Shown here one piece after another: positions 59,600 to 64,000 of a DNA stretch of 64,000 nt (within the stretch, counting starts at the first letter, position 1; each line of letters opens with the position of its first letter). The notes below the pieces were generated by a model that searched no databases, was not told the origin of the DNA, and worked only from the letters and a program-made list of their open reading frames with translations. The stretch comes from Microbacterium sp. (GTDB lineage: Bacteria > Actinomycetota > Actinomycetes > Actinomycetales > Microbacteriaceae). The stretch is from assembly GCA_013823625.1 (NCBI GenBank), contig PNMM01000001.1, positions 682,001 to 746,000 of the forward strand. The letters run 5' to 3'. The translations under genes and the position numbers were made by a program.

Positions 59600-61369
59600 A
59601 TGGTGACCGCAGATCGCCGCACGCGGCGCCGGCTGGCGGCGTCGATGCTCGTGCTGGCGATCATTCTGTCGGCCTTCGTCGTGCGCCTCGTCGACATTCA
59701 AGTCGTGCGCGCTGAGCAATTGGCGCAAGAGTCAGAGGCTCGCCGGTCGATCCCGATGACTATCTACGGCGCCCGAGGCGACATTGTCGATTCACGCGGG
59801 GTCGTGCTCGCCGATTCCGTTTTTCGCTACGACATCACGGTGTCGCCGCGCTTCGTCGCGAAGGCCCTGGAGGTCGAAGCCGGCGGCGGTGTCACGTCGA
59901 CGGTGGCTGACAGCCTCGCCGCTGTCGCCGCGATCGTCGGAGGGGATGGCGCGGCGATGCTTGCCGACATTCAAGGGCAGCTCGCGGCGAATCCCGAAGA
60001 CGACCACGGCTATCTGTCGCGGGGTGTGACGCCGGAGCAGTTCGAGCAGGTGCGCGACCTCGACATTCCGTGGGTCTATTGGGAACGCATCCCGGCGCGC
60101 ACGTACCCCAACGGCCAGATCGCGGGCAACTTGGTGGGCTTCTTGGGCACCGATGGGCCGCAGACCGGTCTCGAGTTTCGACTCAACGAGTGCCTGCAAG
60201 CGACGAACGGCGAGGCCACCTACGAGCGGGGAGCCGATGGCGTGCGCTTGCCCGGCACAACCGTCGTGGCGAACGACGCTGTCGACGGTGGCACCCTGCA
60301 GCTGACTATCGACGCCGACGTGCAATGGTTCGCTCAACAAGCGATCGCCCAGCAGGCCACCGCGATTGGGGCGGAATGGGCCACGGCCGTGGTCGTGCGG
60401 GTTGGTGACGGACACATTATCGCCGCAGCCGACTGGCCAACGGTCGACCCGAACGACGTTAATGGCACTGCTCCCGAGAACCTGGGCTCGCGGGTATTCA
60501 CGTGGCCGTACGAGCCGGGGTCGACGATCAAATCGGCCACGTTCGCGGCACTATTCGACTCGGGTGCGGCGACGATCACTGACCAAGTCATTGCGCCGCG
60601 GCGCTATGACACCATCGCGGGGTTTCAGATCGGCGACGCGTGGGATCACGGCGACCTGCGCTACACCGCGGCCGGCGTTCTCATGAATTCGTCGAACACC
60701 GGCACGTCTGTTTTCAGTGAGCGCTTAACGCTGGATCAACGCCACGACTACCTCACGGGCTTTGGGTTCGGCACCGAGACCGCCGTCGACTTTCTCGGTG
60801 AAGAGCCGGGCTTCGTGGGCGCAGCCGACTCTGTTGACGGCCACACCGCCGTGACCCAGATGTTCGGCCAGGGCATGACGGCCACCGGTGCCCAGGTCGC
60901 GAGCCTGTATCAGACGCTCGCCAACGACGGGGTGCGGGCCCCATTGACTCTCGTGACTGGCTGCACGCACGCTGACGGCACGGTCACTGACCTTCCCCCT
61001 ACCGAGGGCACACGCGTCGTCAGTGAGTCTGCCGCCCGCGATGTCGTCAACACGCTCGAGAACGTCGTCACGCAAGGTTTTCTGTCACGTCAGCTCAGCA
61101 TCCCGGGGTATCGAGTTGCCGCGAAGACGGGTACGGCGGAGGTCTCGGAGAACGGAGCGTACGGCGAAGAGCGCATCGTCTCGGTAGCCGGCATGGCGCC
61201 CGCTGATGACCCGCAGTTCGTCGTGGTGGTGACCTACGGCAAGCCCGATACGATGAAGACGTCGGCTGCCGCCGCGCCCACCTTCCGGTCGATCATGACC
61301 CAGGTGTTGAAGACCTTCCGGGTTGCCCCGTCGACGGTCTCGGCCCCAAGCATCCCGCTGACCTGGTGA
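59600..61369 (+). CDS. ftsI: Septal transpeptidase FtsI (PBP3, class B)
   Basis: The enzyme has 589 residues from ATG 59600, with GGAGGAG upstream. The N-terminal membrane anchor is at about 12-32. The pedestal domain runs to about 230 and the transpeptidase follows, with Ser308-x-x-Lys311 (PGSTIK), SSN 364-366 and KTG 509-511. It cross-links septal peptidoglycan. No PASTA domain is present. The active site is intact, so wall synthesis here is functional up to this step. Confidence 0.95.
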   Translation: MVTADRRTRRRLAASMLVLAIILSAFVVRLVDIQVVRAEQLAQESEARRSIPMTIYGARGDIVDSRGVVLADSVFRYDITVSPRFVAKALEVEAGGGVTSTVADSLAAVAAIVGGDGAAMLADIQGQLAANPEDDHGYLSRGVTPEQFEQVRDLDIPWVYWERIPARTYPNGQIAGNLVGFLGTDGPQTGLEFRLNECLQATNGEATYERGADGVRLPGTTVVANDAVDGGTLQLTIDADVQWFAQQAIAQQATAIGAEWATAVVVRVGDGHIIAAADWPTVDPNDVNGTAPENLGSRVFTWPYEPGSTIKSATFAALFDSGAATITDQVIAPRRYDTIAGFQIGDAWDHGDLRYTAAGVLMNSSNTGTSVFSERLTLDQRHDYLTGFGFGTETAVDFLGEEPGFVGAADSVDGHTAVTQMFGQGMTATGAQVASLYQTLANDGVRAPLTLVTGCTHADGTVTDLPPTEGTRVVSESAARDVVNTLENVVTQGFLSRQLSIPGYRVAAKTGTAEVSENGAYGEERIVSVAGMAPADDPQFVVVVTYGKPDTMKTSAAAAPTFRSIMTQVLKTFRVAPSTVSAPSIPLTW

Positions 61370-61399
61370 GGGGTCAGCCCAGAAAGAGCTGAGGTTGCG

Positions 61400-62935
61400 T
61401 TGTCCCGCATTCCCCCCGTGCTGCGACCCGAACACCCCGCACCCCGACCGCTCTCGGGGCTCATTGATGCCTTTTCGCTCGAGCATCACGGTGAGATCGA
61501 GGGCATCGAGCTCACCGGCATCACGCTCTCGACGGGTGATCTTCGACCCGGAGACCTCTTCGTCGGGCTCAAGGGCGCGCACCGGCACGGGGCCGAATTT
61601 GCCGGCGACGCCGTAGCGGCGGGTGCCGTCGCCGTTTTGACGGATGCCGCGGGCGCGACGCTTGCCGCAGGTGCCGGGGCACCCGTACTCGTGATCAATG
61701 ACCCCCGCTCGGCGCTGGGCGAGATTGCCGCGTGGGTCTACCGAACGCGCGAGGAGCCAGCGCTTATGGTCGGCGTCACGGGCACCAACGGCAAGACCTC
61801 CACGGCCTACTTGCTCGAGGGCATTCTCAAGCAGCTGGGCCACGTCACGGGGCTCAGTTCCACCGCCGAGCGGCACATTGGCGATCTCACCGTCGTGAGC
61901 CGCCTCACGACGCCCGAGGCCACCGAAATGCACGCACTCTTGGCGCGTATGCGCGAGGCAGGCGTGACGGCGATCGCCGTCGAGGTCAGCGCGCAGGCCC
62001 TCAGTCGGCACCGCGTCGACGGCTTGCTGTTCGACGTCGTGGGCTTTACTAACCTCACGCATGATCACCTCGACGACTACGCCGACATGTCCGAATACTT
62101 TGCCGCGAAAGTGCCTCTCTTCTTCGCCGACCGGGGCAAGCGCGGGGTCGTGTCGCTCGACTCGCCGTATGGGGCCCGGGTGGTGGATGCTGCGCGCATC
62201 CCCGTCGTCACGATCACCTCGCACGCCGACGTCGACGCCGACTGGCACGTCGCCATCACTGATGAGCACCCCGCGTACACGGGTTTTCGCCTGACAGGCC
62301 CGGAGGGCCAGTCGATCGAGTCGCGCGTACCGCTCATCGGTGGCCACATGGCCGCGAACGCTGGCCTTGCGATCGTGATGCTTGTCGAAGCGGGTATTGC
62401 GCTCCATGACATCGCCGCGGCCTTGGGCGACACGGGCATCACTGCTTACCTGCCCGGTCGCACCGAGCGCGTGTCGGGCGATCGTGGCCCGAGCGTGTAT
62501 GTCGACTTCGGGCACAGTGCCGATGCCTTTGAGCACACTCTCGCCGCCGTTCGACGCTTCACGCCAGGCCGCACCATCATGGTCTTCGGCGCTGATGGCG
62601 ACCGTGATGCGACGAAGCGCCACGAGATGGCGCGGGTTGCGGCCGAGGGCTGCGACGTGCTCGTCATCACCGATCACCACCCGCGGTTCGAAGACCCTGC
62701 GTCGATTCGCGCGACCCTTCTCGAGGGTGCGGCGCTCGCCTCGAACAAGCCCGAGATTCACGAGGTGAGCCCGCCCGAGCAGGCGATCCGCGTTGCGGTG
62801 GGTCTGGCGCGCGAGGGTGATTCGATCTTGTGGGCGGGCCCTGGCCACCAGGACTACCGCGATATCCGCGGCGTGCGCACCGAGTATTCGGCGCGCGACG
62901 AAGCGCGGGCTGCCTTGCGCGAAGCCGGGTGGTGA
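61400..62935 (+). CDS. murE: UDP-MurNAc-tripeptide synthetase MurE
   Basis: The ligase has 511 residues from TTG 61400, with GAGG 5 nt upstream; it is the only TTG start I assign. The P-loop GVTGTNGKTS (125-134, Lys132) and TTPEATEMHALL are typical of MurE. It adds the third stem-peptide residue to UDP-MurNAc-L-Ala-D-Glu. The amino-acid selector is DHHPRFED (425-432), differing from the DNPR of meso-diaminopimelate enzymes, so another diamino acid is likely. It is followed 4 nt later by the murF-like fragment. Confidence 0.93.
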   Translation: MSRIPPVLRPEHPAPRPLSGLIDAFSLEHHGEIEGIELTGITLSTGDLRPGDLFVGLKGAHRHGAEFAGDAVAAGAVAVLTDAAGATLAAGAGAPVLVINDPRSALGEIAAWVYRTREEPALMVGVTGTNGKTSTAYLLEGILKQLGHVTGLSSTAERHIGDLTVVSRLTTPEATEMHALLARMREAGVTAIAVEVSAQALSRHRVDGLLFDVVGFTNLTHDHLDDYADMSEYFAAKVPLFFADRGKRGVVSLDSPYGARVVDAARIPVVTITSHADVDADWHVAITDEHPAYTGFRLTGPEGQSIESRVPLIGGHMAANAGLAIVMLVEAGIALHDIAAALGDTGITAYLPGRTERVSGDRGPSVYVDFGHSADAFEHTLAAVRRFTPGRTIMVFGADGDRDATKRHEMARVAAEGCDVLVITDHHPRFEDPASIRATLLEGAALASNKPEIHEVSPPEQAIRVAVGLAREGDSILWAGPGHQDYRDIRGVRTEYSARDEARAALREAGW

Positions 62936-62939
62936 TCGC

Positions 62940-63596
62940 GTGAGTCTCTCTGCCCCCGTCATTGATGACGTGATGCATCGGCGAGAAGGGTCGATCGTGA
63001 CCGTGCGCGTCGACACACAAACGGTTGACCTCGCGCTCACTGCCGTGGGCACCGCGGCCGTTGACACCGCGGTCAGCCGGCTCGCTGAGTTGCTGGACGG
63101 GGGAGTGTCGCTGACCGACGCGGTCGACAGGGTAACGCGCGAGAGCGTCGACCTGCCGGGCCACACTTCACGGCACGTTCTGCCCAACGGAGCGCTCGTG
63201 CTCGATGACACCCAGGCCAGCACCGCCCTCGAGGTGCGCGCATCGTTGCGCGTACTCGCCGACCTGACGCGCCAGCACGGCCGCTCGATTGCGGTGCTCG
63301 GTGAGCTCGCGAGTGATCCGGCCGAGTGGTTCGACGATCACGATGCACTGGGCCGCATCATCGTGCGTCTCGATGTCTCACAACTGATCGTGATTGGCGA
63401 CGGCGCCCGGCACATCCACAACGCTGCGGGGCTGGAAGGCTCGTGGGACGGAGAGTCGATTCTGGTCGAGACCCTCGAGCAGGCATACGATGTCGTGCGT
63501 GCGCAGGTCGATGAGGGCGATGTGGTGCTCGTGAGCGCAGCATCCCGAACCCCCCTTTCTTCGCTCGTTGAGCGTCTACTGGAGGCAGATCGATGA
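62940..63596 (+). CDS. Truncated MurF-like protein (C-terminal half only)
   Basis: The product has 218 residues from GTG 62940, versus about 450-500 for MurF. Its sequence matches only the end of the central domain (residues about 15-75) and the Mur-ligase C-terminal domain (about 85-215): [34 protein letters not shown] and VVLVSAASR align with MurF LLLDDSYNAN, VMVVGDMAEL, RVLSVGKQSHAI and ILVKGSR. The UDP-binding N-terminal domain and the ATP P-loop are absent, and the Asn-Ala-Asn and Lys-Gly-Ser-Arg residues are changed. Neighbouring murE leaves no room for a lost 5' part. Ligase activity alone seems impossible. The frame is open and coupled to mraY by ATGA, so it looks maintained. Confidence 0.8.
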
Positions 63597-64000
63597 TCGC
63601 GCTGATGCTGGCCGGGGCGTTCTCGCTCGCCTTCACTCTGTTGCTCACGCCGCTCTTCATCCGGTTGTTCAACCGGCTCGAGTGGGGCCAGTTCATTCGC
63701 GACGATGGGCCCCAGTCGCACCACACGAAGCGCGGAACGCCCACGATGGGCGGCATCGTCTTCATTTTGGGCGCGGTTCTCGGCTACTTCTTCGGCCACA
63801 TCGTGAGTGGCGAGCCCGTCACGATGAGCGCCCTGCTCGTACTCGGGCTCATGGTTGGCCTGGGCCTCATCGGGTTTATCGATGACTTCACGAAGACCCG
63901 CAAGCAGCGAAGCCTTGGTCTCGGCGGCTGGGCAAAGATCGCGGGTCAAGCGGTTGTTGCCACGGTGTTTGCCGTGCTCGCCCTGTCGTTTCCCGACGAG
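63593..64000 (+). CDS. mraY: Phospho-MurNAc-pentapeptide translocase MraY, 5' part
   Basis: The gene starts at ATG 63593, overlapping the previous stop as ATGA, and is cut by the window end after 136 codons. The start [22 protein letters not shown] is the first membrane segment. [18 protein letters not shown] near 40 and [17 protein letters not shown] near 94 are the catalytic-site motifs of MraY. It transfers phospho-MurNAc-pentapeptide to undecaprenyl phosphate to form lipid I. Its substrate requires a working MurF. Confidence 0.94.

Follow-up and report, generated by a model that had tools for sequence, protein, structure and literature searches.

A preserved, catalytically dead MurF remnant between murE and mraY in Microcella, and a membrane-bound module that may have replaced MurF and Ddl

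The gene located between murE and mraY in the 64,000-nucleotide stretch of DNA analysed here (the window) encodes only the C-terminal end of the MurF that once belonged to this cluster; it is catalytically dead, yet kept as a coupled gene of its own across the genus Microcella (Microbacteriaceae) and in other Microbacteriaceae-type genomes. MurF is an essential step of cell wall synthesis, taken in the cytoplasm before MraY. The overall explanation that we regard as probable combines this dead piece with a module, built around a membrane-bound MurF relative here named memMurF, that works in place of MurF and Ddl; the ligase step would take place on a lipid-linked substrate, and the remnant would be kept as a partner of MurE. 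The window locus appears to be the scar of an enzyme replacement, and the scar has itself been preserved.

The short frame (Table 1) runs from a GTG at 62940 to a stop codon at 63594-63596. It begins after a gap of 4 nt from the murE stop (62933-62935) and is overlapped at its own stop by the mraY ATG at 63593, as ATGA, which bears out the coordinates of the original prediction of a short gene at the murF place. That prediction had also read the protein as aligning with MurF only from the end of the central domain onward, with the UDP-binding domain and P-loop missing and key C-terminal residues changed, and the profile searches agree. The sole Pfam domain at E ≤ 10 is Mur_ligase_C (40 bits), and the murF profile TIGR01143 is matched from residue 10 at positions 224-417 of 418 only, with 52 bits against a cut-off of 288.6. 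Neither the UDP-MurNAc-binding N domain (PF01225) nor the ATP-binding central domain (PF08245) was found at Pfam E ≤ 10, and the sequence lacks a P-loop (G..GKT), a (Y/F)N(A/S)(N/S)P motif and a lysine in the VK(S/A)S position. Compared with canonical MurF (TIGR01143, EC 6.3.2.10), the window gene has the C domain and the cluster position but not the UDP domain, the ATP domain or the catalytic motifs, and the lost motifs rule it out as an active enzyme. An AlphaFold2 model built from a 42-row alignment has a mean pLDDT of 94, and the six best Foldseek rows obtained with it are all MurF structures (including 4qf5, 4qdi, 1gg4, 4ziy and 4cvk; best E-value 2.9e-13). A 712-aa open frame on the minus strand (window 61085-63223), lying opposite the ftsI end, murE and some of the remnant, is probably a by-product of high GC.

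Table 1. Features of the murE-mraY region, in window coordinates
Feature	Coordinates	Strand	Basis
MurF C-terminal remnant, 218 aa, own gene, GTG start	62940..63596	+	Frames, Pfam, TIGR01143, model
Remnant residues 1-81, last part of MurF central domain; more variable part	62940..63182	+	TIGR01143, dN/dS by region
Remnant residues 83-201, Mur_ligase_C domain, catalytic motifs degenerate	63186..63542	+	Pfam, alignment
Remnant residues 166-173, EGSWDGES; motif EGS(W/F)xxES	63435..63458	+	Found in 42/42 remnants
murE, 511 aa, all three Mur ligase domains; TTG is the first start codon listed	61400..62935	+	Pfam, TIGR profiles
mraY, cut by the window end	63593..64000	+	mraY also adjoins the remnant in relatives

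The genome that contains the window (2.45 Mb in 4 contigs, given as 99.97% complete) has no TIGR01143 match over the cut-off, and a full-length canonical MurF elsewhere in it was not found by this profile search. The best match, with 185 bits over profile positions 64-364, is a 538-aa protein on contig C4 (G000:C4:48367-49983, minus strand; L002:934-2550, minus strand), and this is memMurF. It contains Mur_ligase_M and Mur_ligase_C but no UDP-binding Mur ligase N domain (no PF01225; Pfam E ≤ 1), and it keeps the P-loop and the motif DDTYNSNP. It is therefore like canonical MurF in its ATP and C domains and their motifs, and unlike it in scoring under the family cut-off and in carrying a membrane part where MurF has the UDP domain. 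The first ~190 residues are modelled as long helices (pLDDT 81) and include five hydrophobic segments. The charges of the loops (positive/negative: residues 25-53, +4/-2; 73-85, 0/-3; 105-124, +6/0; 144-146, 0/0; 166-190, +6/-1) suggest that the ligase part and two conserved loops lie on the cytoplasmic side. Ten residues of the membrane part (W27, Q32, R33, Y36, W48, P103, T118, R120, E170 and A181) are identical in all 56 aligned rows, which comprise 55 of the 80 listed loci and the protein of the own genome; one row (L123) has an in-frame stop that was left as is, and simple hydropathy gives 2 to 6 segments per row. The ten best Foldseek rows obtained with the memMurF model are MurF structures, 2am1 being counted among them. 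The TM-score to MurF reaches only 0.55 by query length since the membrane part has no counterpart there. Across memMurF carriers, the murF profile is matched only up to position 362-403 of 418. A plasmid search with memMurF gave 74 matching records, none of which covers 80% of the query.

Canonical MurF and memMurF rarely occur together in the genomes searched. Of 99 relatives, a count that includes the own genome, 71 have a canonical MurF over the cut-off, and the other 28 are the 26 genomes of the genus plus two more, G055 and G092. A match to memMurF extending over its membrane part was found in 24 of the 26 genus genomes, in G055 and in G092; the G015 copy is cut by a contig end, and the two genus genomes with no memMurF match (G011 and G025) are both 71% complete. 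None of the 71 MurF genomes has a membrane-part match, as no listed match begins before query residue 124. Canonical Ddl follows the same division: it scores over the cut-off in 70 of the 99 genomes, and the other 29 are the same 28 together with G075, which does not carry memMurF and has a Ddl under the cut-off at 236.5 bits.

The pattern extends beyond the family. In an even sample of Actinomycetota, memMurF was found in 30 of 396 genomes and canonical MurF over the cut-off in 338. The best MurF E-value in the 30 carriers is 1.6e-73 or weaker, or there is no match at 1e-40; that none of them exceeds the cut-off is read from the best E-value per genome among the matches listed, the cut-off corresponding to ~1e-86 by the relation of E-values to bits in the result tables. 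Fourteen of the 30 belong to one family, with matches starting only at model position 86-125. Named carriers, among the matches listed, include Microcella, Pontimonas, Marisediminicola, Actinotalea, Arsenicicoccus, Modestobacter and Acidimicrobiia. From the 80 loci listed among 557 relatives, 50 were taken for genome search, L142 being left out, and 46 of the 49 genomes searched have no MurF over the cut-off; six of these genomes (G099, G100, G101, G102, G103 and G108) duplicate G007, G005, G002, G001, G020 and G010, so that the 49 add ~43 genomes. Two of the duplicated genomes, G001 (locus L122, Microcella pacifica) and G002 (locus L121, Yonghaparkia sp. Root332), identified by their identical coordinates, are assigned to the genus of the window. 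Separately, in nine of ten genomes of one family (f37: G160, G223, G233, G276, G286, G340, G372, G445 and G472) the strongest murF match reaches an E-value of only 1e-54 to 1e-60; these genomes are non-carriers of memMurF at 1e-60, possibly pointing to another MurF variant.

The three carriers with both enzymes among the 49 searched are Nocardioides luteus, Nocardioides YR527 and Nocardioides albus. In these genomes only 126-138 bases separate the murE stop from the mraY start, with no MurF between them, and the canonical MurF lies outside this site (L248, which is N. luteus G122:C44, L249 and L250). In N. luteus two of its neighbours score over their cut-offs, a D-Ala-D-Lac ligase (575.8 bits against 550) and a VanX dipeptidase (362.6 against 320), and two score under them, a VanH-like dehydrogenase (478.8 against 540) and a VanR-like regulator (450.9 against 505). 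The HMM scan covered N. luteus only, and the neighbours in YR527 and N. albus are similar by reading of the sequences. With such van-type neighbours, the extra Nocardioides MurF looks like part of a glycopeptide-resistance-type cluster and not a housekeeping enzyme.

The memMurF gene of the own genome is found between an alpha/beta hydrolase gene and a gene for a divergent Ddl (DdlX), downstream of a gpsA-like gene. Among the 80 loci listed, the hydrolase is present within 400 bp upstream in 73 of the 75 loci whose sequence extends at least 900 bp upstream, the exceptions being L154 and L132 (which has unread bases there), and a GHSxG elbow is seen in 63 of 74 hydrolase matches. DdlX is present within 500 bp downstream in 69 of the 72 loci with at least 1300 bp of downstream sequence, the exceptions being L154, L163 and L180. 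DdlX resembles canonical Ddl (TIGR01205) in having both Ddl domains (Pfam) and in lying, in the genus and G055, downstream of a gpsA-like gene, named by reading its sequence; it differs in adjoining memMurF and in scoring only 160 bits (172 for the G092 copy) where the cut-off is 245.65. At the substrate end it carries a NEVNSIPGALSLYLW-type motif that appears to differ from that of canonical Ddl. The own genome has a second Ddl-like gene beside a parB-like gene (L085:1444-2439, minus strand; G000:C2), with 210.6 bits to TIGR01205, under the cut-off, and 249.7 bits to NF002378 (cut-off 243). With this second gene present, DdlX need not be the sole maker of D-Ala-D-Ala. Second matches about as strong are frequent among the 99 genomes. 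No GatD partner is encoded among the genes next to memMurF, and no MurT-type C domain was listed in the protein at Pfam E ≤ 1, Mur_ligase_C being present instead. The memMurF, hydrolase and DdlX genes were also seen on contigs titled Acidobacteria MAG (L178, L187 and L189).

This distribution strongly supports the view that the MurF step has passed to memMurF, with the module standing in for canonical MurF and Ddl. The integral-membrane protein encoded between the hydrolase and DdlX would then catalyse the addition of D-Ala-D-Ala to the MurNAc-tripeptide. Because memMurF has no UDP domain, and has invariant residues in positively charged cytoplasmic loops at the membrane, its substrate may be the lipid-linked tripeptide formed after MraY, a proposal based on domain anatomy to which we give slightly less than an even chance. 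It would act in the manner of Staphylococcus aureus MurT/GatD, which is reported to amidate lipid I and lipid II and no soluble UDP-linked precursor (PMC6085368). The likeness lies in a Mur ligase relative working on a lipid-linked precursor; memMurF differs in its membrane helices, Mur_ligase_C domain and MurF motifs, and in having the hydrolase and DdlX as neighbours and no glutaminase.

A more conventional memMurF would take soluble UDP-MurNAc-tripeptide, with the membrane part serving only to place it by MraY. The ligase part is indeed MurF-like in sequence and fold, and all 30 carriers that were searched for mraY keep one, which would take the usual pentapeptide. We nevertheless find a conventional substrate unlikely, given that the UDP-binding domain of Mur ligases is absent and that ten identical membrane-part residues in every aligned row are beyond the need of an anchor. 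It is less likely again that memMurF and DdlX build a stem end other than D-Ala-D-Ala. The weak Ddl score of DdlX and its apparently different substrate-end motif would fit such an end, but the carrier N. luteus has VanX, which destroys free D-Ala-D-Ala, beside its D-Ala-D-Lac ligase, an arrangement that is sensible if the housekeeping route yields D-Ala-D-Ala. Moreover, the three transpeptidases described in the Pontimonas genome paper are all of the D,D-type (PMC6106888). Of the three options offered in the original prediction, a full canonical MurF elsewhere was not found in the own genome, and a different means of adding D-Ala-D-Ala is the one favoured by the evidence, with memMurF beside DdlX.

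The remnant itself was matched in all but one of the 26 Microcella genomes; of these 25, among which is the own genome, seven are single-contig (G004, G009, G014, G016, G018, G021 and G022); the G025 copy is cut by a contig. The 26th genome (G024) has no short gene and no mraY match at E ≤ 1e-40 either, which indicates that the whole locus is missing from that assembly. Among the 99 relatives, the frames matched by the remnant outside the genus are at least 421 aa long, except for one of 223 aa in G055. In the wider set of carriers, 49 mraY loci were fetched, one of which (L228) is cut. Of the 48 assessable loci, 26 have neither a remnant nor room for one, 17 outside the genus have a remnant, and five are Microcella already counted. 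Adding the 25 Microcella remnants to these 17 gives a set of 42. Start codons were picked by script as those nearest the murE stop, with L024 and L201 trimmed by hand.

Twelve of the 17 are free-standing genes, 139-337 aa long, from genomes of the Microbacteriaceae type (one record, TMED98, has Cellulomonadaceae in its title). The longest, in Marisediminicola (337 aa), retains the C domain and, of the ATP domain, just the second half (profile 117-200). At the other extreme, the G055 remnant (210 aa) matches no Pfam family at E ≤ 0.01, and those of RYN62 and MWH-Ta3 are under the curated Pfam cut-offs. One remnant of 118 aa, from a Frankiales MAG (L201), has an uncertain start, as it begins in a different frame that overlaps the end of murE. 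The remaining four, from three Actinotalea and one Actinomycetales MAG, are fused in frame to the end of MurE, and each of the three scanned with Pfam has two Mur_ligase_C stretches. In the remnant tree, the Actinotalea, Actinomycetales and Frankiales-MAG sequences are placed with MurF from other families and separately from the remnants of Microbacteriaceae; an AU test, with few columns and long branches, did not reject a single remnant clade (p 0.085).

The P-loop and the (Y/F)N(A/S)(N/S)P motif are absent from all 42 remnants, only three of which keep a lysine near the VK(S/A)S position. The EGSW motif, as EGSW(D/G)xE, is also found in the C domain of canonical MurF at 29 of 35 loci (at least four genomes being counted twice), so the remnants inherited the motif and kept it while catalysis was lost. 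In the six closest pairs, remnant dN/dS (Nei-Gojobori) is 0.33, 0.44, 0.09, 0.19, 0.08 and 0.28. For the four closest pairs with all genes, the values are 0.03-0.16 for memMurF and 0.05-0.10 for murE, and the remnant exceeds memMurF in all four and murE in three, the fourth (G006/G014) giving 0.09 for the remnant and 0.10 for murE. The memMurF genes of G020 (one TGA inside the match) and G015 (contig cut) were left out. The C domain has the lower dN/dS in eight of 11 computable pairs and the higher in three (G001/G004, G011/G015 and G002/G003). Values reach 0.85 in distant pairs, where dS is unreliable in this GC-rich genome. The analysis shows that the remnant is under purifying selection, mostly weaker than that on its neighbours. 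Conservation of the fragment, together with the dN/dS of close pairs, thus supports the earlier call for a retained role.

In favour of the window gene being a decaying pseudogene that just happens to be still open are the differing remnant lengths (118-337 aa), the many carriers with no remnant, and a dN/dS above that of memMurF and, in three of four pairs, above that of murE. We consider decay decidedly improbable, as the frame is open in 25 of 25 assessable genus genomes, the closest pairs give dN/dS of 0.08-0.44, and EGS(W/F)xxES is kept in every remnant. Very improbable is a split enzyme in which the remnant completes memMurF: the early end of the murF profile match in memMurF would suit it, but memMurF has its own C domain and DDTYNSNP, and the absence of a remnant from 26 of the 48 assessable carrier loci indicates that memMurF does not need one in general and makes an obligatory partnership unlikely. 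An assembly deletion or sequencing artefact, as when relatives carry an intact murF and this strain alone has lost it, has a negligible chance and is rejected at assembly level, since the same short gene is found in 25 of 26 genus genomes, seven of them single-contig, and none of the 26 has a MurF over the cut-off.

For a remnant preserved as a dead gene, we tentatively favour a role as a non-catalytic partner domain of MurE, which it may contact via the surface around EGSWDGES. This preference comes from the in-frame MurE fusions in Actinotalea. The suggestion in the original prediction of a scaffold or regulator of MurE and MraY is strengthened by these fusions where MurE is concerned, and nothing was found in favour of the MraY part. 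MurE and MurF material is also joined in one chain in the Bordetella MurE-MurF fusion (PMC6420597, PDB 8f5d), which is a complete bifunctional enzyme, whereas Actinotalea keeps only the dead MurF C domain. The Bordetella protein is described in the same report as binding MurG (PMC6420597), and scaffolding among Mur proteins therefore has a precedent in kind.

Nothing was found in the open-access PMC literature on a membrane MurF or on loss of MurF in these groups, and the term 'murF' is absent from the main text of the Pontimonas genome paper (PMC6106888). It is conceivable, if short of probable, that these lineages finish the pentapeptide at the membrane: MraY would take UDP-MurNAc-tripeptide, memMurF fed by DdlX would add the dipeptide to lipid I or lipid II, and the dead MurF would serve as a MurE scaffold in some of them. 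MurF and Ddl have apparently been replaced by a membrane-bound module in these bacteria. If this is true, they may carry out the steps of a textbook pathway in another order, the MurF and Ddl family cut-offs would miss the replacement enzymes, and the preserved dead MurF tail would suggest that a Mur ligase domain can have a second function that is not catalytic.
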